From Cryobacterium glucosi (lineage in GTDB: Bacteria; Actinomycetota; Actinomycetes; Actinomycetales; Microbacteriaceae): 64,000 nucleotides of DNA. Where the stretch lies: the NCBI RefSeq assembly GCF_004402235.1, contig NZ_SOFS01000019.1, positions 1-64,000 on the forward strand. Direction: 5' to 3'. The position numbers and the translations under genes are program-made. This document shows, piece by piece, positions 46,866 through 58,907 of this stretch; positions within the stretch are counted from its first letter, which is position 1; each line of letters opens with the position of its first letter. Under the pieces are notes generated by a model that ran no database searches, was not told the DNA's origin, and saw only the letters and a program-made list of their open reading frames with translations.

Positions 46866-47882
46866 CTACAGCCAGTTGTTCTTCTTGAAGACGCGCCAGA
46901 GCACGAAGCCGCCCGCGACCATCAGCCCGAGGGCATAGGGGTAGCCGTACTCCCAGTGCAGCTCCGGCATGTTCTCGAAGTTCATCCCGTACACGGTTCC
47001 GACGAGGGTCGGAGCGAACAGGATCGCCGCCCAGCTCGAGATCTTCTTGACCTCTTCACTCTGGGCCAGGCCCGTCTCCGAGAGGCGCCGGGTCTCGTCG
47101 TTCTGGCGCTGGGTGACGAGGGTCGAGTGCACGATCAGGGCGTTGTCGAGGATCTGCCGGAAGGCCGAGCCGCGCTCGTTGATCCGCAGCACGTGGTCGA
47201 GCACGTCGTCGAGGTGGTGGTGCAGCTCGACCTCGACGTTGTACTTCGCGAAGCCGCGCTTGAGGGCCTCGAGCATGCCGATCAGCGGCTGGGTCGCCCG
47301 CTGGAACTCGATCACCTCGCGGGACAGGTCGTAGATGCGCCGGGCGACCTCGGGGTCGCCGTCGAAGATCTCGTCCTCGATCTCGTCGATGTCGTTCTCG
47401 AGGCCGGCGATCACGGGCGCGTATTCGTCGACGAGCTGGTCGAAGATCGCGTAGAGCACCGCCTCAGGGCCGAGGGCCAGGAGCCTCGGCGTCGACTCCA
47501 TCCGTGCGCGCACCTTCGCGAGGTCCGGGGATTCGGCGTGGCGGATGGTCACGACGAAATCGGGCCCGACGAAAACGTGCAGTTCGCCGAATTCGACCCG
47601 CTCCTCGGCGTCGATGTACCGGGCCGGGCGGAGCACCACGAAGAGGATGTCGTCGAACCGTTCGAGCTTGGAACGCTGGTGTCCCTTGAGCGCGTCCTCG
47701 ACCGACAGGTGGTGCAGGTTGAACTCCGCGGCGATGGAGCGCAGCTCAGCCTCTTCTGGCCGGTACATCCCGATCCAGGCGAAGCCGCCGCATTCGGTCA
47801 GAGTCGCATAGGTCTCATCGAGGGAGGCGGGCGTCGCGAGGCGTCGACCGTCCACGTAGACCGCGTTGTCAATCAGTGTCAT
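46866..47882 (-). CDS. corA: CorA-family magnesium/cobalt transporter
   Basis: Pentameric Mg2+/Co2+ channel, 338 residues from the ATG at 47882, which has GAGGAG 6 nt upstream; an ATG 54 bp further up would add a weakly supported extension. The cytoplasmic part contains FAWIGMYRPEEAELRSIAAEF and the long helical segment EVARRIYDLSREVIEFQRAT. The C-terminal pair of spans holds the selectivity signature YGMNFENMPELHWEYGYP (GMN) and ends in a basic KKNNWL tail. No leader with a Mg riboswitch is visible (63 bp to the divergent phosphopantetheinyl transferase gene). Confidence 0.95.
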   Translation of the reverse strand: MTLIDNAVYVDGRRLATPASLDETYATLTECGGFAWIGMYRPEEAELRSIAAEFNLHHLSVEDALKGHQRSKLERFDDILFVVLRPARYIDAEERVEFGELHVFVGPDFVVTIRHAESPDLAKVRARMESTPRLLALGPEAVLYAIFDQLVDEYAPVIAGLENDIDEIEDEIFDGDPEVARRIYDLSREVIEFQRATQPLIGMLEALKRGFAKYNVEVELHHHLDDVLDHVLRINERGSAFRQILDNALIVHSTLVTQRQNDETRRLSETGLAQSEEVKKISSWAAILFAPTLVGTVYGMNFENMPELHWEYGYPYALGLMVAGGFVLWRVFKKNNWL

Positions 47883-47945
47883 GTCGTGCTCCTCGAGTGC
47901 AGCTACCAGTGTGCCACCGGCCGTGGGTTCGGCCACACTTGGTGC

Positions 47946-48641
47946 ATGGAATCCATCGGCGAGGTGATCGTCATGGTCGCGCCGCGTTCACCAACGGATG
48001 CCGCCGACCGAGCCCTGCTGGCGGCGGCCGCCGCGTGGGCGCTCGGCCTCGATCCCGCGAGCGTGCGGGTCTGTCGCCGCTGCCCGCACTGCGGGAGCGC
48101 CGAGCACGGGGTGCCCTCCCTCGCGGACGTGACATCCGGGTCTGCGCCGCACCCGACCGTTCACCTCAGCCTCAGCCGGGCGTCCGGCCACGTCGCCGTC
48201 GCGGTGAGCTTCGCCGGGCCCGTCGGCGTCGACGTCGAAAGCGTGGACGCCGTCGCCCGCTCCCCCCTCGCCGACGTCGCCCTGTCTCCTCGCGAGCGGG
48301 CGGCGAACGCCGCAGACCTCGCCGGGATCTGGTGTGCGAAGGAGGCGATCCTGAAGTCGACCGGCGACGGCCTCCGCGTCGATCCGCGCGACCTCACCCT
48401 CGCCCCCGCCCCAACGGCCGGGTTCGGCCCGGCGCTCGCCTCCTGGCCCGGCGCCGGCGTCGCCCTGGCCGACATCCTCCTCGCGAGCTTCGACCCCGGC
48501 GCGGGCCTCGGGCTCGTCGGCCGGGTCGCCGTGCTCGCCCGTCCCGGAACCGGCCCCGCGTCTCAGCCGGCCCTCCGACTGCTCGCCTCCCCCGACGTCA
48601 GAGCTTGGGGAGGGCGGTCCGGTAGATCCAGCGGTCGATGA
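47946..48641 (+). CDS. 4'-phosphopantetheinyl transferase (Sfp-like)
   Basis: Transfers phosphopantetheine from CoA to a Ser on carrier domains; 231 residues. The ACPS/Sfp motifs are GPVGVDVESVD (Mg-binding Asp/Glu) and GIWCAKEAILKSTGDGL (W-x-K-E-A-x-x-K). An N-terminal CRRCPHCGSAEHGVPSL Cys/His cluster is shared by a group of actinobacterial members. Its 3' end overlaps the convergent M1 peptidase gene by 44 bp. The adjacent Pls/PosA-type synthetase has a carrier domain and needs this modification, so it is the likely substrate. Confidence 0.9.
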   Translation: MESIGEVIVMVAPRSPTDAADRALLAAAAAWALGLDPASVRVCRRCPHCGSAEHGVPSLADVTSGSAPHPTVHLSLSRASGHVAVAVSFAGPVGVDVESVDAVARSPLADVALSPRERAANAADLAGIWCAKEAILKSTGDGLRVDPRDLTLAPAPTAGFGPALASWPGAGVALADILLASFDPGAGLGLVGRVAVLARPGTGPASQPALRLLASPDVRAWGGRSGRSSGR

Positions 48642-50007
48642 TGCGGCGGATTTCCTCGCTCCCGGTGTGGATGGAGACGAACTCGACAAAGGCATCCGTC
48701 GAGACGAGGCCGTGCCGGTTCGCGCGGGTCCAGGCGCGCAGGGTGTCGAAGAACACCGCGTCGCCGAGGGAGCGCCGCACGGCGTGCAGGGCGAGCGCAC
48801 CGCGCTTGTAGACCCGGTCGTCGAACATGTTGTGCGGGCCGGGATCGCCGACGAGGAGGTCCTGCGGTTGCGCCTCGAGCCTGCCGCGGTGGAACACCGC
48901 GCTCTGCTCCGCGGTGCGTCCGCCGGCGTGTTCGCCCCAGATCCATTCCGCGTAGCAGGCGAAACCCTCCTGCAGCCAGATGTCGCGCCACGCGGCGGCG
49001 GTGAGGCTGTTGCCGAACCACTGGTGCGCGAGCTCGTGGGCGATCAGGCGGTCGCTGCCATGGTTGCCGTCGACGTGATTGCGGCCGAACACGGCGAGGC
49101 CGTGCGCCTCGAGCGGGATCTCGAGCACGTCATCCGTCACGACGACCGAGTACCCCGGGAACGGGTAGGGGCCGAAGGTCGTGCTGAACACCGAGACCAT
49201 CTCGCCGAGCCTGCCGAAGTCGACGCCGACGTTGTGCGCGAGGTTCGACGGGAAGTGCAGCATGATCGGCACCGGGGCCGGGCCGCCCGCCGCAACCGGC
49301 GGCAGCACGCTCGAACGGTACCGGCCGATCATCACGGAGGCGAGGTAGGTCGCCATCGGTTCGACGACCTCGAAGGTCCACCTGGTGTGGCCGGAACGGG
49401 TCGACTTCGCGGTGAGCGTGCCGTTCGAGACCACGGTGTACGGCGCCTCGCAGCTCACCGCGATCCGGTACGTCGCCTTGTTGCTCGGGTGGTCGTTGCA
49501 GGGGAACCACGAAGCGGCCCCGCACGGCTGGCCCGCGACGAGGACTCCGTCGAGCAGTTCCTCCCAGCCGACCTCTCCCCAGATACTCCGCAGCGGATGC
49601 GGCGCCCCGCGATACCGCACGGCGATCTCGAACCGTTCCCCGGCTTCCATCGTCGTCAGCGGGGTCACCACGAGCTTGCGTCCGGTGTGCACGAACTTGC
49701 GCGGCCGGGCGCCGTTGACCGTGACCCGGTCGACGCTCAGCCCGTCGAAGTCGAGGCTGAACCGGTCCAGGCGCATCGTCGCCACGAGGGTGATCGTCGC
49801 GGTCGCGCGCAACTGGTTGGTCGCGACCCGGTAGTCCAGGTCGAGGTCGTAGTGCAGCGCCCGGTAGCCGCCGTTGCCCGCGCCGATCAGGTAGGGATCG
49901 CCGGCCGTGCCGGCGCCGATCGTCGTCGGGAGGTTGAGGGCGACCTTGCCGGACGAACCGGCAGAGCCCTTGCCTGCGCCGTTCTTCCCGCCGGTCTGCG
50001 GGCTCAC
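48598..50007 (-). CDS. M1-family zinc metallopeptidase coupled to the Pls/PosA-type synthetase
   Basis: Gluzincin aminopeptidase, 469 residues from the GTG at 50007, which overlaps the synthetase TGA (GTGA) and indicates translational coupling. The N-terminal beta domain leads to SFSDR-region substitutes such as PCGAASWFPCNDHPSNKATY (an M1 hallmark). The zinc site is HELAHQWFGN plus the downstream Glu in WLQEGFACYAEW. The length is typical of compact M1 peptidases without the C-terminal HEAT domain. No signal peptide is seen, so it acts in the cytoplasm unless exported another way. Processing or degrading the synthetase product is inferred from the coupling. Confidence 0.9.
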   Translation of the reverse strand: MSPQTGGKNGAGKGSAGSSGKVALNLPTTIGAGTAGDPYLIGAGNGGYRALHYDLDLDYRVATNQLRATATITLVATMRLDRFSLDFDGLSVDRVTVNGARPRKFVHTGRKLVVTPLTTMEAGERFEIAVRYRGAPHPLRSIWGEVGWEELLDGVLVAGQPCGAASWFPCNDHPSNKATYRIAVSCEAPYTVVSNGTLTAKSTRSGHTRWTFEVVEPMATYLASVMIGRYRSSVLPPVAAGGPAPVPIMLHFPSNLAHNVGVDFGRLGEMVSVFSTTFGPYPFPGYSVVVTDDVLEIPLEAHGLAVFGRNHVDGNHGSDRLIAHELAHQWFGNSLTAAAWRDIWLQEGFACYAEWIWGEHAGGRTAEQSAVFHRGRLEAQPQDLLVGDPGPHNMFDDRVYKRGALALHAVRRSLGDAVFFDTLRAWTRANRHGLVSTDAFVEFVSIHTGSEEIRRIIDRWIYRTALPKL

Positions 50008-53000
50008 GGTGTCCACGGCAGTCTGTGCCACGGCGAGATCGGGTTTCCTGACCAGACCGACCCGGCAGGCACCCGCTCGCCGCGCATCACGAGGGACGCG
50101 GGGCCGACCGTCGCTCCGGCATCCACCGATGCGGCGGGCAGGATCACGCTGTGCGGTCCGAGGGTGGCCCCCTCGGCGAGCGCGACCCGGTCCAGCTGCA
50201 TGATCCGGTCGTGGAACAGGTGAGTCTGCACGACGCAGCCCCGGTTCACGGTGACCCCGTCGCCGAGGGCCACGAGGTCCGCTTCCGGCAGCCAGTATGT
50301 CTCGCACCAGACGCCGCGGCCCACCCGGGCCCCGATCGTGCGCAGGAACATCGACAGGGCGGGGGTCCCGGCGGCCTTCGCCGCGAACCACGGCCGGGCG
50401 ACCATCTCGACGAAGGTGTCCGAGACCTCGTTGCGCCAGATGAACGATGACCAGAGCGGATGCTCGCTCACGGAGATCCGCCCGACGAGCGCCCACTTGG
50501 CGAGGCTCGTCACGACCGCGGCGACGGCACCGGCCGCGAGGATCACGATCCCGCCGAGCAGGATCGCCCAGCCGAGACCGAGGCCGAGCCAGAGGGCGTC
50601 GAGCGCGGCGAGCACGCCGAGGGCGATCAGCCCGGTCACGACAACCGGCACGATCCGCAGCACCTCCCAGAAGGCACGGGCCGTGCGGAGACGGGCGGAC
50701 GGCTGGAACGTGCGCGCCTCGTCGACATCCGTCACGAGCCGCCGCAGCCGCTCTGGCGGGTTGCCGAGCCACGAGGACCCGCGCTTGGCCTTGCGCGGCG
50801 TGGACGAGAGCACGGCGACGAGTCCGTTGCGCGGCACCGTGCGGCCGGCGCCGGCCATGCCGCTGTTGCCGAGGAAGGCGCGGCGGCCCACCTTGGCGGG
50901 CCCGATGTGCATCCAGCCGCCGCCGAGTTCGTAACAGGCGACCATCGTGTCGTCGGCGAGGAACGCTGCGGGCGCGATCGTGGTGAGCGCGGGGATGAGC
51001 AGCACGGTCGACGCCTCGACGCCCGCGCCGACCTTCGCGCCGAGCAGGCGCAACCACACCGGGGTGAGCAGGCTCGCGTAGACGGGGAAGAGCAGAGTGC
51101 GCGCGCCGTCGAGGATGCGCTCGGTCATCCAGACCTGCCAGCCGAACCGACTGCGCACAGGGTAGTAGCCCTCGCGGAGCCCGACGCCGAGCACCCGTAC
51201 GGCGAGCACGACGAGCAGCGCGTACACGAGCCCGGCGACCACCACGGCGAGCGGCATCATCAGCGCGGCCCGGCCGAGCGCGAGGCCCAGGGTGCCGGCG
51301 TCGCCGATCGCGGCGCCGACGAGGAGGGCGGCGAGAATCACCGCGACCGCGGGCATCGCGGTCATGCCGAGCGCGCCGAGGGCGTATGCCGCAAGCCAGC
51401 GCCGGCCGCGTGGCGGGTGTTCGGCCGGCCAGGCGCCGCGGGCGGCCCCGACCCGGGTGGCAGGCGAGCCGGCCCAGCGTTCGCCCTCCGGCACGTGGCC
51501 GGACACGGCGGCGCCGGGTTCGATCACGGCGCCCTCGCCGATCACCGCTCCGCCGAGGAGGGTGCTGCGCGCGCCGATCGTGGCGCCGGCGCCGATCTTC
51601 ACCCGTCCGATGCGCAGCACGTCGCCGTCGATCCAGTAGCCGGACAGGTCGCTCTCTGGTTCGATCGCGGCGCGCTCGCCGATGGACAGCATCCCCGTCA
51701 CGGGCGGGAGCGCGTGCAGGTCGACGCCCGGTTCGATGCGGGCGCCGAGCGCCCTGGCGTAGTAGCTGATCCAGGGCGCTCCGGCGAGGCTCACGGCGTC
51801 GACGAGCAGGGACACCTGCTCGGCGAGCCAGAGCCGCAGGTGCACGGACCCCGCCCGCGGGTAGGCGCCCGGCTTCACCCCGCGGAGGAGGAGCCGGGAC
51901 GCGAGAACGGAGAGCGCCATCTTGCCGGGCGGGGTGACGAAGACGAGGAATCCGGCGAGGATCCACCACCAGGACAGCGTCGGCGCGAACGTGGCGCCGC
52001 CCGCGGCGAGCAGGTTGTTCGCCGCCGCGAGGTAGACGAGCCAGCGGGCGCCGACGAGCGCGTGCAGCGGGATGCCGAGCAGGGTCTGCAGGAGCTGGCT
52101 GCGGAACGGGACCGGAAGCACGGTGCGCGCCGCGGCCACCACGGCGGGGGTGCGGGAGTCGAGTTCGTCGGCGAGAGCGCCGATGCGGGGGTGGTCGTAG
52201 ATGTCGTTGACCCGGGTGTCCGGGTAGCGTTCGCGGAGCGCGGAGACGAACTGGGCGGCCGTGAGCGAGCCACCGCCGTGTGCGAAGAAGTCGGCGTCCG
52301 GACCCTCGACGGTGGACCCGAGGATGGCAGCCCACTTCTCGGCGAGCCAGGCCGCCGTCGGAGACAGCAGGCCGGCATCCGTGTCGTCGCCCGTCGCCGG
52401 GAGCGGCCAGGGCAGGGCGGCCTTGTCGACCTTGCCGGAGACCCGCGTGGGCAGCTCGTCGACGACGGCGAGCAACGGCACGAGAGCGGCGGGTAATTCC
52501 TCCCGCAGGCGCACGGTCGCCTGGCCGCGGTCGAAGGCGGATGCCGCGTCGACGAGTGCGAGGTAGCCCACGAGCACCTGGTTCCCGGCCGGGGTGCGCT
52601 GCACGACAGCGGCGGCACCGGCGACGCCCGGCAGGGTGCGCAGCGCTGCCTCGATCTCGCCGAGCTCGATGCGACGTCCGCCGAGCTTGACCTGGTCGTC
52701 GGCGCGGCCGGCGAAGACGAGGCCGGACGCCTCGAAGCGCACGAGGTCGCCGCTCCGGTAGGCGCGCGGCCAGCCGAGGCCGGCGTGCGGGGCGTACTTC
52801 TCGGCGTCCTTGGCCGGGTCGAGGTAGCGGGCGAGGCCCACTCCCCCGATGATGAGTTCCCCGGTCTCGCCTTCGGCGACGCGGGCGCCCGCGGAATCGA
52901 CGACGGCGAGGTCCCAGCCGTCGAGGGGCAGGCCGATCCGGATCGGCGCGCTGCCGTCGAGCAGCGCGGCGCACGCGACGACGGTCGCCTCGGTCGGCCC

Positions 53001-53969
53001 GTAGGTGTTCCAGACCTCACGGCCCCTGGCCTGCAACCGGTCGGCGAGTTCGGGCGGGCAGGCTTCTCCGCCGAAAATGAGCAGGCGCACCCGTTCGAGG
53101 GCTTCCTCCGGCCAGAGGGCGGCGAGGGTCGGCACCGTCGACACGATGGTGATCCCGTGCGCGATCAGCCACGGGCCGAGGTCGACGCCGCTGCGCACCA
53201 GCGAACGGGGAGCGGAGACGAGGCAGGCGCCATTCCGCCAGGCCAGCCACATCTCCTCGCAGGAGGCGTCGAAAGCGACCGAAAGGCCCGCGAGCACCCG
53301 GTCGGCGGGGCCGATCGGGTCGGCCCGGAGGAACAGTCCGGCCTCGGCGTCGACGAACGCGGCCGCGGAGCGGTGCGAGACGGCGACACCCTTCGGCACC
53401 CCCGTCGAACCGGAGGTGAAGATGACCCAGGCGTCGTCGCTGCCGCGGGGCAGGGTGCGGTGGGTGTGCGCGAGGGTCAGGTCCTCCTCGGGCGGCAGCA
53501 TCCGCTGCCTGAGCATGACGTCGTCCACCGCCGGCCGGAACTCGAAGACGCCGCCGCGGCCGATTACGCCGACGACGCGGGCCTCGCTGAAGACCAGGTG
53601 AGCGCGTTCCTCTGGGTCGTCGGCGTCGACCGGGACATAGGCGGCGCCGACCCGCAGGGTCGCGAGAATGGACACGTAGAGTTCGCGGGTTCCGGAGGGG
53701 ATGCGGATGCCGACGGTGTCCCCGCGGCGCACGCCGGCCTGGCTGAGGGCGAGGGCCTGCTCGTCGACGAGGTGCCGGAGCTGGCGGTAGCTGACGGTGC
53801 CGGACTGGTCTTCGAGCGCGAGGGCGTTGGGGTGCCTGGCTTCGGTGGCGAAGAGGATGTCGATGAGGGTGCGCGCCTCCGCCGTGCGCGATCCGGCCTC
53901 GAGCACGGCCTGGGCGGCGGACTGCGCTGCGGCCTGGGTTGCGCCCTGCGGAACGGGGGTCTCGGTCAC
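50004..53969 (-). CDS. Pls/PosA-family non-ribosomal peptide synthetase (A-T-membrane-terminal domains)
   Basis: Single-module membrane NRPS, 1321 residues from the GTG at 53969 (GAGGAG 5 nt upstream). The adenylation domain (about 35-530) has FTSGSTGVPKG, FDASCEEMWLAW, NTYGPTEATV, YRSGDLVRF, GRADDQVKLGGRRIELGEIE and SGKVDK. The carrier domain (about 540-610) has HGGGSLTA with the phosphopantetheine Ser near 568. The remaining ~700 residues alternate membrane spans with left-handed-helix hexapeptide-like blocks (for example GAGATIGARSTLLGGAVIGE), as in epsilon-poly-lysine synthetase relatives. Asp234 and Glu238 in the pocket would suit a basic amino acid. The product is unknown. Confidence 0.88.
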   Translation of the reverse strand: MTETPVPQGATQAAAQSAAQAVLEAGSRTAEARTLIDILFATEARHPNALALEDQSGTVSYRQLRHLVDEQALALSQAGVRRGDTVGIRIPSGTRELYVSILATLRVGAAYVPVDADDPEERAHLVFSEARVVGVIGRGGVFEFRPAVDDVMLRQRMLPPEEDLTLAHTHRTLPRGSDDAWVIFTSGSTGVPKGVAVSHRSAAAFVDAEAGLFLRADPIGPADRVLAGLSVAFDASCEEMWLAWRNGACLVSAPRSLVRSGVDLGPWLIAHGITIVSTVPTLAALWPEEALERVRLLIFGGEACPPELADRLQARGREVWNTYGPTEATVVACAALLDGSAPIRIGLPLDGWDLAVVDSAGARVAEGETGELIIGGVGLARYLDPAKDAEKYAPHAGLGWPRAYRSGDLVRFEASGLVFAGRADDQVKLGGRRIELGEIEAALRTLPGVAGAAAVVQRTPAGNQVLVGYLALVDAASAFDRGQATVRLREELPAALVPLLAVVDELPTRVSGKVDKAALPWPLPATGDDTDAGLLSPTAAWLAEKWAAILGSTVEGPDADFFAHGGGSLTAAQFVSALRERYPDTRVNDIYDHPRIGALADELDSRTPAVVAAARTVLPVPFRSQLLQTLLGIPLHALVGARWLVYLAAANNLLAAGGATFAPTLSWWWILAGFLVFVTPPGKMALSVLASRLLLRGVKPGAYPRAGSVHLRLWLAEQVSLLVDAVSLAGAPWISYYARALGARIEPGVDLHALPPVTGMLSIGERAAIEPESDLSGYWIDGDVLRIGRVKIGAGATIGARSTLLGGAVIGEGAVIEPGAAVSGHVPEGERWAGSPATRVGAARGAWPAEHPPRGRRWLAAYALGALGMTAMPAVAVILAALLVGAAIGDAGTLGLALGRAALMMPLAVVVAGLVYALLVVLAVRVLGVGLREGYYPVRSRFGWQVWMTERILDGARTLLFPVYASLLTPVWLRLLGAKVGAGVEASTVLLIPALTTIAPAAFLADDTMVACYELGGGWMHIGPAKVGRRAFLGNSGMAGAGRTVPRNGLVAVLSSTPRKAKRGSSWLGNPPERLRRLVTDVDEARTFQPSARLRTARAFWEVLRIVPVVVTGLIALGVLAALDALWLGLGLGWAILLGGIVILAAGAVAAVVTSLAKWALVGRISVSEHPLWSSFIWRNEVSDTFVEMVARPWFAAKAAGTPALSMFLRTIGARVGRGVWCETYWLPEADLVALGDGVTVNRGCVVQTHLFHDRIMQLDRVALAEGATLGPHSVILPAASVDAGATVGPASLVMRGERVPAGSVWSGNPISPWHRLPWTP

Positions 53970-54066: not shown

Positions 54067-54918
54067 TCAGCGGGCGTCCCCAGCGGATGCCGGCCGGCCG
54101 AGCACAGGACCGAGCGCGTCGAGCTCCTCGCCGCCGGCCATCAGCCTCGTGAGCTCGTCGACCGTGATCCCGTCGCGCGCGAACTCGCCGAGGCTCGTGC
54201 CGCGGTTGAGCACGAGGAACCGATCCCCGACGGCCCAGGCATGGTGCGGGTTGTGCGTGATGAACACGATGCCGAGGCCGCTGTCCCTGGCCCGCGCGAT
54301 GTACCGCAGCACGAGGCCGGCCTGGGTGACGCCGAGCGCGGACGTCGGTTCGTCGAGGATGACGAGTTTCGCGCCGAAGTGCACGGCGCGGGCGATCGCG
54401 ACGGCCTGGCGTTCCCCGCCGGAGAGGGTGCCGATCGGCTGGTCGACGTCGCGGAGGGTGATGCCCAGGGTCGCAAGGCTGTCCCGGGTGGTCACCCGCA
54501 TCCTGGCGACGGCGAGGCGGCGGAACGGCCCGCGGCCGACCGTCTCCTCCGCTCCGAGGAAGAAGTTGCGCCAGACCGGGAGCAGCGGCACGAGGGCCAG
54601 GTCCTGGTAGACCGTCGCGATGCCGAGGGAGAGCGCGTCACGGGGGCTCCCGAAGTGTTGTTCGACGCCGTGGGCGAGGAGGGTGCCTTCGGTGTGCCCG
54701 TGTGCCCCGGCGAGGACCTTGATCAGTGTGGACTTGCCCGCGCCGTTGTCGCCGAGCACGCAGAGCACCTCGCCGGCTCCGATCGAGGCCGTCACCCCGC
54801 TCAGCGCACGCACCGAACCGTAGCTCTTGCCGAGACCGCGGACCTCGAGAAGAGGCGCCCGGGCATCCGCCGCCGCGCCCAGGGGCTCCGCCGTGCCCAG
54901 GGGCTCCGCCGCGGTCAT
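54067..54918 (-). CDS. Sugar ABC transporter ATP-binding protein (CUT2, single-domain)
   Basis: ATPase of 283 residues related to RbsA/XylG but with one nucleotide-binding domain. Walker A is [13 protein letters not shown], the Q-loop [20 protein letters not shown], signature [14 protein letters not shown], Walker [13 protein letters not shown] and the H-loop [15 protein letters not shown]. Single-domain CUT2-type ATPases (FrcA-like) fit this layout. The ATG overlaps the permease TGA by 4 bp. It is the last gene of the three-gene importer operon; the C-terminal Asp/Gly-rich tail is short. Confidence 0.92.
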
Positions 54919-55901
54919 GAGCGCTCACCGGCCTGGCGGCGCACCCAGAGGTTGACGAGTACCGCGAGCAGCAGCATGCCGCCGAGGAAGGCCTTGAGCC
55001 AGTTGCTGTCCCACTGGGCGAAGACGATGCCCTGGAGCGCCATGCCGTAGATGAGGGCGCCGAGGGACGCGCCGATCGCGGAGCCGAACCCGCCGGTGAG
55101 CAGGCAGCCGCCGACGACGGCGCAGATGATGTAGACGAATTCCTGGCCGATGCCCGTCGTCGCCTGCACGGTCGACACGTCGAAGAGCTGGAGCATTCCG
55201 ACGAGCCAGGCGGCGCCTGCGGTCGTGAGGAAGAGCCCGAACTTCACCCGGCGCACGGGCACGCCGACCTGGCGGGCGCTTGCGGCCTGGCCGCCGACCG
55301 CGAAGACCCAGTTGCCGAAGCGGGTGCGCAGCAGCACCCAGGTCGCGAGCGCGGTCAGCAGGATCCACCAGACGATCGAGATCTTGACGTCCATGCCGAA
55401 CAGCGGGAACGAGGAGCCGAAGAGCACCCGGGCCTGGTCGAAGCCCGTGACGGCCCCGAGGCCCTGGATCGCGACGGTCCCGGTGAGCAGTTTGGTGACG
55501 GCGAGGTTCAGGCCCTGCAGGATGAAGAAGGTCGCGAGGGTCACGATGAAACTCGGCAGGCCGGTCGAGGTGACGAGCCACGCGTTGAAGGCCCCGACGA
55601 GGAGGGCCGCGGCGAGCGCGAGCACGAGGGCGAGCCACACGTTCAGGCCCCACTGCGTCGTCGCAATACCGACGATCAGGCCGGTCGTTCCCGTCATCGC
55701 GCCCGCGGAGAGGTCGAACTCTCCGCCGATCATCAGGAGCGCCACGGCGACGGCCATGATCCCGAACAGCGACGACGAATACAGCCAGGTTGCGACGCCG
55801 GCCGGGGTCAGAAAAGCGGATGTCGAGATCGAGAAATACAGGAAGATCCCGAACGCGGCGACGAAGGCCCCGACCTCGGGGCGGCGGAGCAGCCCGGTCA
55901 T
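54915..55901 (-). CDS. Sugar ABC transporter permease (RbsC/XylH-like)
   Basis: Membrane permease of 328 residues, BPD_transp_2 family, about 9-10 spans. Family marks are [20 protein letters not shown], then [40 protein letters not shown] (the EAA-like coupling loop) and [20 protein letters not shown]. It is co-translated with its neighbours (4-bp overlaps at both ends). It probably homodimerises with the single-domain ATPase. The transported sugar is undetermined; homologues import fructose, ribose, xylose or inositol. Confidence 0.93.
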
Positions 55902-56875
55902 CGGGTTCCGTGTGCCGCGTAGGTGGCGACCTGCGCCGCGTTCTCCTTCGTGACGAACCCGGGGCCGGAGAACACCGGCTGGCCGCCGCCGACGACATCG
56001 CCGTTGCGCTTCTGCAGGGTGAGGAAGACCACCGGAAGGTAGCCCTGGGAATAAGGCTGCTGGTCGACCGCGAACAGGATCGAGCCGGCCTCGATGAGCG
56101 TCGTCACGTCTTTGGACACGTCGAAGGTCGCGAGCTGCGCGTGGCTGCCCGCGTCGGTGATGGCCTGGCTCGCGGCGACGGCGATGCCCGGGTTCAGGCT
56201 GAGCACACCGTCGATCGTCGGGTCGGCCAGGAGCGTGCTCTTGATCGTGTTCTGGGCGTCCGCGAGGTTGGCGATGTCGACCTGTACGTTCATGACCGGG
56301 CTGCCGAGCCCGGCGGCGGCTCCCCGGCAGCGGTCCTCGAGGCCCGTGTTGCCTGCCTCGTGGATGACGCAGATCACCTTCGTGGCTCCCGCCTTGGCGA
56401 GGCGCTCCCCCGCGGACTGTCCGGCGGCGTACTCGCTCTGGCCGACGTGGGTCTGGGCGCCGAAGGCGAGGGACTCCTCGAGTCCCGAGTTGATCGTGAT
56501 CACCGGGATGCCGGCCGCCACGGCCTTCTCGACGGACGCCTTGACCCCGTCGGGGTTCGCCATCGAGACGATCAGTCCGTCCGGATGCGTCGCGACGGCC
56601 GAATCGATCAGCTGGCTCTGACGCACGGGGTCACCGTCGCCCTGGTATGTCACGGTCGCGCCGAGGTCGGTGCCTGCCTGCTCTGCGCCACTCTTGACCA
56701 CGTCCCAGAACGCGTCGCCCGGGTTTCCGTGGGTGACCACCGCGATGGTCGTCTTCCCGGCGGATGCCGCGTCCGATCCGGTCGCGGTGCTCCCGTTCGT
56801 CGAGCATCCGGTGAGGGCGAGCGGAAGCAGGACCAGGGCGGTGAGCCCGGCGAGCAGGCTGGTTTTGTGCAACAT
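55898..56875 (-). CDS. Sugar ABC transporter substrate-binding lipoprotein (RbsB-like)
   Basis: Exported lipid-anchored binding protein, 325 residues. The signal MLHKTSLLAGLTALVLLPLALTGC ends in a lipobox. The periplasmic-binding fold is recognised from TIAVVTHGNPGDAFWDVVKSG, GLIVSMANPDGVKASVEKAV, GIPVITINSG and the hinge region AVDQQPYSQGYLPVVFL. It is the first gene of the importer operon. A TAAGAT hexamer at 56962-56967 (minus strand) is a possible -10. Ligand class is inferred from family only. Confidence 0.92.
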   Translation of the reverse strand: MLHKTSLLAGLTALVLLPLALTGCSTNGSTATGSDAASAGKTTIAVVTHGNPGDAFWDVVKSGAEQAGTDLGATVTYQGDGDPVRQSQLIDSAVATHPDGLIVSMANPDGVKASVEKAVAAGIPVITINSGLEESLAFGAQTHVGQSEYAAGQSAGERLAKAGATKVICVIHEAGNTGLEDRCRGAAAGLGSPVMNVQVDIANLADAQNTIKSTLLADPTIDGVLSLNPGIAVAASQAITDAGSHAQLATFDVSKDVTTLIEAGSILFAVDQQPYSQGYLPVVFLTLQKRNGDVVGGGQPVFSGPGFVTKENAAQVATYAAHGTR

Positions 56876-57004
56876 CGGTGGGTCGTCCTTCGAGGCCAGT
56901 CGTCAGCCAGCTGCCGGAGCTCGGCAGGCGAGCGGGACGCCGCTGAGGATGACCCTCCTGAATCTTAGGCTGCAGCGCTGCGCGGCTGGTTCGGAAAGGA
57001 CCTC

Positions 57005-58474
57005 CTACAGGCCGGCGATAGACGGCAGCCGTCCGGAACGGACGGCCTCGGCGAAGGCCTCATAGTCGCGGTCGTTCTGGTCCGCATAGCGCAGCGAGAA
57101 ATCAGTGATCGCCGTGTCGAATTCAGCTCCCTTCCCGAGGTAGGCGGCGATGGCGACGGGGTCACCCGAGCGTGCGTGCGCGCGAGCGAGCGTCCAGCCG
57201 CAGAGCCCGGCATAGAGGGTCATGCCGAACGGCACCATGTTCTCCACGACGACGGACCCCTTCATGTCGCGTAGCTGGCGCCAGTAGAGGAACCGGTTCT
57301 CCTGCACCCCTTTCGTCCAACCGAGGTAGATGTCGCTCGCGGCCTGCATCATCCGCTGTCCCTGCACGACGCGCTCACCGGGTTGTTCGTAGCGGCTCCT
57401 GTCGAGGTGGTCCTCGAGCACCGAGGCCCTGGCCTCCTTGACCTGGAGGAAGAGTGGATCATGTTGGTCACGCCCCTGGAGCAGCGCTATGTAGGCGCGC
57501 GTGCCGACGCTCCCGACGCCCACGACTTTACGGGCAACGTCGACGAGTTCGAAACGTTCGAGCAGCCGGCGGCGGTCATCCTGGAGATTGGCGCGGTAGG
57601 AGCGGAACGCCGTCCGGACCGATTCCTCGATCTCGTCGGGCGACAGTCCCGTCGTCGTCGTCAGCTCCCGGACAGGGATGACGATCGGCGGCTGGCTGAT
57701 GATCCGGTAGTCCCCGTCAACGAACTCTGCGAGCTTCGACAGCGCCTGCAGGCTGTCACGGGTGCGGGCCTTGTCGGCGAGCGCCCTGGTCCTCTTCTCG
57801 GCGTTCACCGCAGCCTTGCGCTCCGTCCGGTCTCCTTTCTTTTTGCCCGCGGCCACCTGGAGGGTCGCCATGACGGTCTCCTCGGTCATGCGGGCGTACC
57901 AGACGTCCATCGTGCCCATCTTCGCGAATTCCGCCATCGCCTCGCGATACGCCCGCACCGAGGCGAGCGTCACGTCGTGGACCTGGGAGTTCGTGAACCT
58001 GTTGTTGCGCGCCGCGATCGTGAAACTCGCGCACATCCGCTGGACGTCGTATTCGAACGGGCCGGGCAGGGTTTCGTCGAAGTCGTTCAGGTCGAAGAGC
58101 AGGGCACGCTCCGGCGAGGCGAACAGGCCGAAATTGGACAGGTGGGCGTCACCGCAGAGCTGGACGATCAGCCCGGACCTCGGGGTGTCCTTGAGGTCGG
58201 CGGCCATGATCCTGGCCGCGCCGCGGTAGAACGTGAACGGCGATACCAGCATGCGGCCGTGCCGGACCGGCACGAGGTCCTGCTCCCTGGTGAGGTTCTG
58301 TTCCTCGAGCAGCGCCACCGGGTCCGGTCTGTCCGCGGCCGGCGACCAACCCGAGTGACTGGCGCGGGGAGTCTGCTCCCTGGCCCGCTTGCCCCTGGCC
58401 TTGCGCTCCCCCACGGTCGCGTGCTCGACGACATTGTCGAGCGCGGCCCTGTCCTCATACATGGTGGACGACAT
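57005..58474 (-). CDS. DUF2252 domain protein
   Basis: 489 residues from the ATG at 58474, the start before MSSTMYEDRAAL. DUF2252 marks are RHGRMLVSPFTFYRGAA, IVQLCGDAHLSNFGLFASPE and LFDLNDFDETLPGPFEYDVQR, which resemble aminoglycoside-phosphotransferase-like (protein-kinase-fold) catalytic loops (GDAHLSNFG, DLNDFDE), and a C-terminal YADQNDRDYEAFAEAVRSG. The family is thought to be kinase-like but is uncharacterised. It precedes a sugar importer operon on the same strand with a 129-bp gap, so it is probably separate. Confidence 0.9.
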   Translation of the reverse strand: MSSTMYEDRAALDNVVEHATVGERKARGKRAREQTPRASHSGWSPAADRPDPVALLEEQNLTREQDLVPVRHGRMLVSPFTFYRGAARIMAADLKDTPRSGLIVQLCGDAHLSNFGLFASPERALLFDLNDFDETLPGPFEYDVQRMCASFTIAARNNRFTNSQVHDVTLASVRAYREAMAEFAKMGTMDVWYARMTEETVMATLQVAAGKKKGDRTERKAAVNAEKRTRALADKARTRDSLQALSKLAEFVDGDYRIISQPPIVIPVRELTTTTGLSPDEIEESVRTAFRSYRANLQDDRRRLLERFELVDVARKVVGVGSVGTRAYIALLQGRDQHDPLFLQVKEARASVLEDHLDRSRYEQPGERVVQGQRMMQAASDIYLGWTKGVQENRFLYWRQLRDMKGSVVVENMVPFGMTLYAGLCGWTLARAHARSGDPVAIAAYLGKGAEFDTAITDFSLRYADQNDRDYEAFAEAVRSGRLPSIAGL

Positions 58475-58529
58475 CCATGCTTGACGACCTCTCTGTCGTT
58501 TTCTTCTGTCGTTTTCTCCCCGGGCAGGA

Positions 58530-58907
58530 CTAGCCCAGCGCGCGGGCCTTGAGCCGCTCGTATTCGGCCTGGGTGATGATGCCGGAGTCGAGCAGCTTCT
58601 TCGCGTCCGCGATTTCCGTGGACGGCGACGAACCCGCAACGGTCTTGATGTACTGATCCGTCTGGCCCCGGTACTGGTTCCTGCGCTGCTCCTGGCGCTC
58701 GGACATCCCGGAACCCCGCGCGATCAGGTAGACGAGGGCGGTGAGGAAGGGCAGGAAGACTAGGAAAACCATCCAGATGGCCTTGACCCCGCCGCTGACC
58801 TGATGGTCGCTGAACAGGTCCCCGATGACGGTCACGAGCACCATCAGGTAAGCGAGGAAGACGAAGGACCAGAAGAAGAACCCGACAAAGTTCCAGAAAC
58901 TATCCAT
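58530..58907 (-). CDS. PLDc_N/SHOCT domain membrane protein
   Basis: 125-residue membrane protein: two spans (about 5-29 and 41-64) of the cardiolipin-synthase N-terminal (PLDc_N) type, a hydrophilic linker, and a C-terminal SHOCT motif EIADAKKLLDSGIITQAEYERLKARAL. The catalytic PLD domain is absent, as usual for these small proteins. The function is unknown; SHOCT often mediates oligomerisation. It starts 122 bp downstream of the end of the DHA2 exporter gene and 56 bp before DUF2252 on the same strand. Confidence 0.88.
   Translation of the reverse strand: MDSFWNFVGFFFWSFVFLAYLMVLVTVIGDLFSDHQVSGGVKAIWMVFLVFLPFLTALVYLIARGSGMSERQEQRRNQYRGQTDQYIKTVAGSSPSTEIADAKKLLDSGIITQAEYERLKARALG

Follow-up and report, generated by a model that had tools for sequence, protein, structure and literature searches.

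A 64,000-nucleotide (nt) stretch of the Cryobacterium glucosi genome (family Microbacteriaceae; contig NZ_SOFS01000019.1, assembly GCF_004402235.1; hereafter, the window) carries pls, a gene for a membrane homopolymer synthetase that resembles nonribosomal peptide synthetases, together with a coupled M1 metallopeptidase gene and a convergent gene for a Sfp-like 4′-phosphopantetheinyl transferase (PPTase). We read this unit, with a probability of roughly 0.88, as an ε-poly-L-lysine (ε-PL) cassette in which Pls would be activated by the neighboring PPTase and the polymer hydrolysed by the coupled M1 enzyme. The architecture, the adenylation code, the coupling, the conservation and the counts of PPTase clients are observed here. 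The arrangement is not due to chance: the peptidase gene follows pls in all 48 other loci sampled from the family, and in 39 of 49, the window included, the PPTase gene lies next to the pair in convergent orientation.

These loci come from a survey of 398 Microbacteriaceae genomes, 165 of which encode the synthetase; the 48 loci taken besides the window comprise seven from its genus and otherwise one per genus, except for one genus that contributed two. A class-level sample holds 40 loci out of 105 synthetase-bearing genomes, and a further set of 80 named loci comprises those that matched the window synthetase protein best, out of 592 matches, and is thus biased. The synthetase also matched 18 plasmid records, in two of which (Kitasatospora and Rhodococcus opacus B4) the gene neighborhood was inspected.

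Synthetase, code and predicted product

Pls (1321 residues from a GTG start; 50004..53969, minus strand) has no internal stops, scores 710 bits against the TIGR02353 model of the Pls/PosA C-terminal region (cut-off, 423) and is the only match above this cut-off in its genome. One protein contains, all encoded on the minus strand, an adenylation domain (approximately residues 42–521; 52407..53846; AMP-binding), a carrier (thiolation) domain (52164..52349; PP-binding), and a C-terminal polymerisation region in which membrane segments alternate with hexapeptide-repeat blocks (50037..52091; TIGR02353 and Hexapep). Ser568, in the carrier motif HGGGSLT, is the expected site of 4′-phosphopantetheine attachment; this Ser is invariant in 49/49 family loci.

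What does the enzyme polymerise? The closest solved structure is that of the ε-PL synthase adenylation domain (7WEW; E 1.1e-185), with which the window domain shares 63.7% identity over 490 positions. Scripted extraction of the ten-residue code gave D234, A235, E238, S277, I298, G300, T322, V330, V331 and K513 (DAESIGTVVK), and all ten residues are identical in 7WEW. The same code is found in 48/48 other family loci, 34/40 class loci and 80/80 named loci. In a tree of 168 synthetases, from which a class sequence with an unmatched adenylation domain (cls_L116) and a duplicate copy of the window protein were excluded, the 163 DAESIGTVVK enzymes, the window's among them, group as a single clade (support, 0.99) that excludes five sequences with other codes; these five make up no single clade under the rooting used. 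In an adenylation-domain tree, 7WEW falls inside the lysine-code clade (0.997), with its exact position supported at only 0.549. Code and phylogeny thus group the protein with ε-PL synthetase. Its original assignment to the Pls/PosA family holds, and the pocket motif FDASCEE, with Asp234 and Glu238, is where it was said to be. The original prediction of a basic substrate holds; its verdict that the product is unknown does not, because a code exactly equal to that of 7WEW makes the product predictable.

Published relatives point the same way. Coryneform Pls homologs have a lysine pocket, and Corynebacterium variabile Pls expressed in Streptomyces coelicolor yields ε-PL of 26–35 residues (passages of PMC8117764). 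On these grounds, the window synthetase very probably would make ε-PL; this prediction does not extend to whether the gene is switched on.

Peptidase coupling and site of action

The M1 gene (48598..50007, minus strand; 469 residues from the overlap start) begins inside pls: its GTG start codon and the TGA that ends pls share a GTGA tetranucleotide at 50004..50007. The product is a PldII-like two-domain metallopeptidase with an HExxH-18-E motif (Peptidase_M1, 91 bits; Peptidase_M1_N, 63 bits) and a near full-length match to PDB 6a8z (chain of 474 residues; E 1.5e-54). The motif is conserved in 49/49 family loci, and 30 of these show an in-frame overlap of 4 nt whose start codon is ATG, GTG or TTG. 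An M1 gene lies near 30/34 lysine-code loci of the class sample (within 1.7 kb in 29) versus 1/6 loci without the code; among the named loci it is directly adjacent to pls in 75/80, with the 4-nt overlap in 40 of these 75, and at most 3.5 kb away in the other five. The window enzyme is 44–46% identical to pls-adjacent M1 proteins from five loci of one large-genome family in the class sample (L115, L117, L118, L119 and L121) and likewise to that on the Kitasatospora plasmid (L216), where the M1 gene adjoins pls. The second plasmid inspected, Rhodococcus opacus B4 pROB01 (L217), is a mobilizable linear plasmid that carries a Pls/PosA synthetase gene.

The translational coupling that had been predicted is therefore real, but not new: passages of the literature describe a pldII gene that overlaps pls by 4 nt in one operon in Streptomyces albulus (PMC4361855) and a pls-peptidase operon in C. 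variabile (PMC8117764). S. albulus pldII is described as translationally coupled to pls; PldII hydrolyses ε-PL, and repression of pldII leads to a longer polymer (passages of PMC9223678).

On which side of the membrane would the peptidase act? By a crude test of N-terminal hydropathy (15-residue span; threshold, 1.6), the M1 domain has no hydrophobic segment ahead of it in the window protein, in 49/49 family loci, in 30 of the 31 class loci with an M1 gene, or in 80/80 named loci. A secreted-looking M1 of the window genome served as the control and scores 1.89 over 15 residues; a 17-residue span with a threshold of 1.8 was discarded because this positive control reached just 1.75. In an earlier version, with 17-mers read from the overlap start and a line at 1.6, 1/49 family peptidases was marginally over (1.62 versus 1.6). 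The sole exception in the 15-residue test, the class locus L114, is found beside a synthetase with another code: this locus (genome G553) encodes a DFEYLGTVTK synthetase and, 0.8 kb downstream, an M1 protein with an export-like N-terminus. The linked enzymes, which lack a visible export signal, would thus work inside the cell, on chains that are retained or released in the cytoplasm; either they do so or they leave by a route invisible to the hydropathy test. The secreted-looking M1 of the window genome (L091 3856-5523, genome contig C23) is also a two-domain protein, 33% identical to the coupled M1, and the two resemble the Pld and PldII pair of S. albulus.

The convergent phosphopantetheinyl transferase

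The third gene of the unit (47946..48641, plus strand) converges on the peptidase gene, with which it shares 44 nt at the 3′ ends (48598–48641). Its product scores 42 bits against the ACPS superfamily (PF01648; cut-off, 25) and does not reach the curated thresholds of the NCBIfam PPTase models; in alignment it contains GVDVE, WCAKEAILK and a CxxCG...HG region. We take GVDxE and WxxKExxxK to be motifs of the Sfp-type family. The motif lysine is replaced in 15/28 aligned family PPTases (as in WTRVEAVLK), which suggests altered contacts with coenzyme A.

Within the family, the PPTase gene is adjacent to pls-M1 (at most 300 nt) and convergent in 39/49 loci, convergent at 1.1–1.5 kb in four, and on the opposite side of pls in two; the 3′ ends of the PPTase and M1 genes overlap in 23/49. 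An iterated profile found it in 44/48 loci, as compared with only 35/48 for a single tblastn query (P0003). The two genes also travel together: among the 398 family genomes, 183 have the PPTase, both genes are present in 163, pls alone in two, the PPTase alone in 20 and neither in 213, so that the PPTase accompanies 163/165 synthetases and is found in 20/233 other genomes, counts that are uncorrected for shared ancestry. Beyond the family, the PPTase is convergent in 8/34 lysine-code class loci and convergent beside pls in 33/80 named loci, with two more placed otherwise. All 33 belong to genera that we take to be Micrococcales; five Micrococcales named loci (two from Leifsonia and one each from Arthrobacter, Lacisediminihabitans and Planctomonas) had no PPTase that the profile could find.

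What would this enzyme modify? Two PP-binding carriers are encoded in the window genome, one within Pls and the other a separate 102-residue frame (an acyl carrier protein). The genome also encodes two ACPS-family enzymes, a 118-residue protein taken for AcpS and the locus PPTase, which leaves Pls as the only evident client of the latter. Exactly two carriers are present in 30/44 synthetase-bearing genomes (40 genera) and, in a separate count, in 5/10 genomes of the window's own genus. In 20 of the 213 genomes that lack both genes, one carrier was counted in 15, two in four and none in one; among the 20 PPTase-only genomes, 16 have two or more. The PPTase thus tends to accompany a carrier beyond the fatty-acid one; here, that carrier is Pls alone. 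The claim that the synthetase has its own PPTase is well supported, and this enzyme would prime the Pls carrier.

Searches of the open-licence literature that paired the transferase with the polymer enzyme turned up no account of a PPTase beside pls: none appears in passages of PMC8949500 and PMC4361855, and "phosphopantetheinyl" occurs zero times in PMC8117764. The linkage is thus, for this literature, a modestly new three-gene context. Synthetase and PPTase genes also lie close together in four genomes of 1.6–1.7 Mb (G336, with locus L087; G181; G270; and G306), and the full three-gene unit with the GTGA overlap was confirmed in L087 (1.7 Mb). Retention of the cassette in genomes this small suggests that it is more than a luxury antibiotic.

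Past the PPTase lies a gene for a CorA-type magnesium transporter (46866–47936, minus strand), relatives of which are found downstream in 7/7 loci of the same genus and, in reversed orientation, in L077; in L049, one such relative is on the other side of pls. Upstream of pls (54067–58639, minus strand) are a set of ABC transporter genes (ATPase, BPD_transp_2 permease and periplasmic-binding protein) and a DUF2252 gene. Every coordinate checked from the original prediction, including those of the GTGA and 44-nt overlaps, proved correct. Peptidase and PPTase are kept beside the synthetase in related genomes, and the original picture of a maker, an activator and a likely trimmer side by side survives as a reading of the sequence.

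Proposed mechanism, rivals and known systems

In the proposed mechanism, the PPTase would place 4′-phosphopantetheine on Ser568 of the Pls carrier; the adenylation domain would adenylate L-lysine, with Asp234 facing its α-amine and Glu238 its side-chain amine, and load it as a thioester; and the C-terminal membrane/β-helix region would link lysines iteratively, α-carboxyl to ε-amine. The chain would exit the cell. The coupled M1, a PldII ortholog by position and sequence, may act intracellularly on ε-PL that is kept in the cytoplasm or set free there, and hydrolysis would serve to protect the producer or to control chain length. Lysine activation, the ε-PL product and PldII hydrolysis are here carried over from published relatives; ε-PL production by the window strain, priming of Pls by the PPTase and the peptidase's site of action are presumed.

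Could the polymer be something else? Family members of the same architecture make δ-poly-ornithine, poly-diaminobutyrate, poly-diaminopropionate or poly-β-lysine, and a code is merely a predictor. Yet this code is identical to that of 7WEW, and the known alternatives differ: the PosA ornithine pocket of Met218, His260, Asn280 and Ser313 (passages of PMC10522769) is not matched by the window residues Ala235, Ser277, Ile298 and Val331 (paired by code order, not by alignment), and the β-lysine synthetase code is reported as DGESISVVNK. The nine flanking open reading frames scanned, three of which lack a Pfam match, revealed neither an aminomutase nor a diaminobutyrate gene, and passages of PMC8117764 place the other three synthetases in a gene context unlike the pls-peptidase operon. 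Another cationic homopolymer is, in our estimate, very improbable. Only slightly less so is an ordinary aminopeptidase that shares the operon and does not use the polymer as its substrate: M1 enzymes are generalists, and the window genome encodes two others, but this one is conserved beside the synthetase across genera, with a 4-nt overlap in 30 of 49 family loci, and an M1 gene is near just one of six class loci without the lysine code; PldII activity, moreover, is published for the same gene arrangement (passages of PMC9223678 and PMC4361855).

A stronger challenge, albeit still an unlikely one, comes from the idea that the PPTase serves secondary metabolism at large and that its position beside pls is an inherited accident. 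Its absence from the vicinity of pls in 45 of the 80 named loci fits this idea, as do the 20 family genomes that have the PPTase without pls, most of them with two or more carriers. Against it, Pls is the sole evident client in the window genome, two carriers are all that 30/44 synthetase-bearing genomes have, and a single carrier is the rule (15/20) in the genomes checked that lack both genes. Several points weigh against the reading as an ε-PL cassette with a neighboring activating enzyme. No PPTase was found in 4/48 family loci, in stretches that reach approximately 4.6 kb beyond the peptidase end, or in 45/80 named loci, as judged with a profile made from family sequences that more distant PPTases might escape; the misses include 0/11 Nocardia, 0/9 Rhodococcus and 0/8 Mycobacterium/Mycolicibacterium loci, a few of which have short downstream stretches (e.g., L147). 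Linkage is therefore not required for function. Shared ancestry could inflate the co-occurrence of pls and PPTase, 4/20 PPTase-only genomes have a single carrier, and 29/45 PPTases do not fit the canonical W..KEA..K motif (16/45, the window's included, do). No M1 gene was found in 4/34 lysine-code class loci or beside pls on the R. opacus B4 plasmid. The protein was undetected and no product was seen in C. variabile itself, and C. glutamicum carrying C. variabile pls yielded no product (passages of PMC8117764); homologs may therefore be silent. The role of PldII in length control is disputed, since a review reports that inactivation of Pld and PldII altered neither yield nor length (passages of PMC8506220). 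Finally, the reported location of PldII outside the membrane (passages of PMC9223678) does not fit linked M1 enzymes without a visible signal.

Gene sets of this kind are common in bacteria. Since synthetase-peptidase coupling was already known, the locus is of value for comparison: all three genes occur together again and again in the Microbacteriaceae and in several other Micrococcales genera. A broader proposal, that many Micrococcales keep, even in genomes of 1.6–1.7 Mb, a self-contained maker-editor-activator ε-PL cassette with a dedicated PPTase and an intracellular peptidase, is speculative and, taken whole, doubtful. If true, ε-PL would be not just a secreted antibiotic but a managed cell component with a co-made turnover enzyme. 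The cassette is a compact source of the synthetase for an approved food preservative, plus its probable activating enzyme, and it opens the peptidase's supposed role inside the cell to experiment.

How does the window unit compare with known systems? The S. albulus pls-pldII pair has the same kind of synthetase, a coupled peptidase gene and the 4-nt overlap (passages of PMC4361855); unlike it, the window has an adjacent PPTase, and its coupled M1 lacks a visible export signal, in contrast to the reported location of PldII outside the membrane (passages of PMC9223678). The C. variabile operon shares the synthetase family, the peptidase and the lysine-type pocket, and Pls homologs are listed in Microbacterium and Arthrobacter (passages of PMC8117764). 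PosA, the δ-poly-L-ornithine synthetase of Acinetobacter baumannii, has the same domain order and C-terminal family but a different pocket and substrate (passages of PMC10522769). PDB 6a8z, a two-domain M1 metallopeptidase, matches the coupled enzyme along nearly the full length and is listed only as a putative zinc metalloprotease, with no link to a synthetase stated. The window thus holds a known kind of system with a conserved third gene, that of the PPTase.

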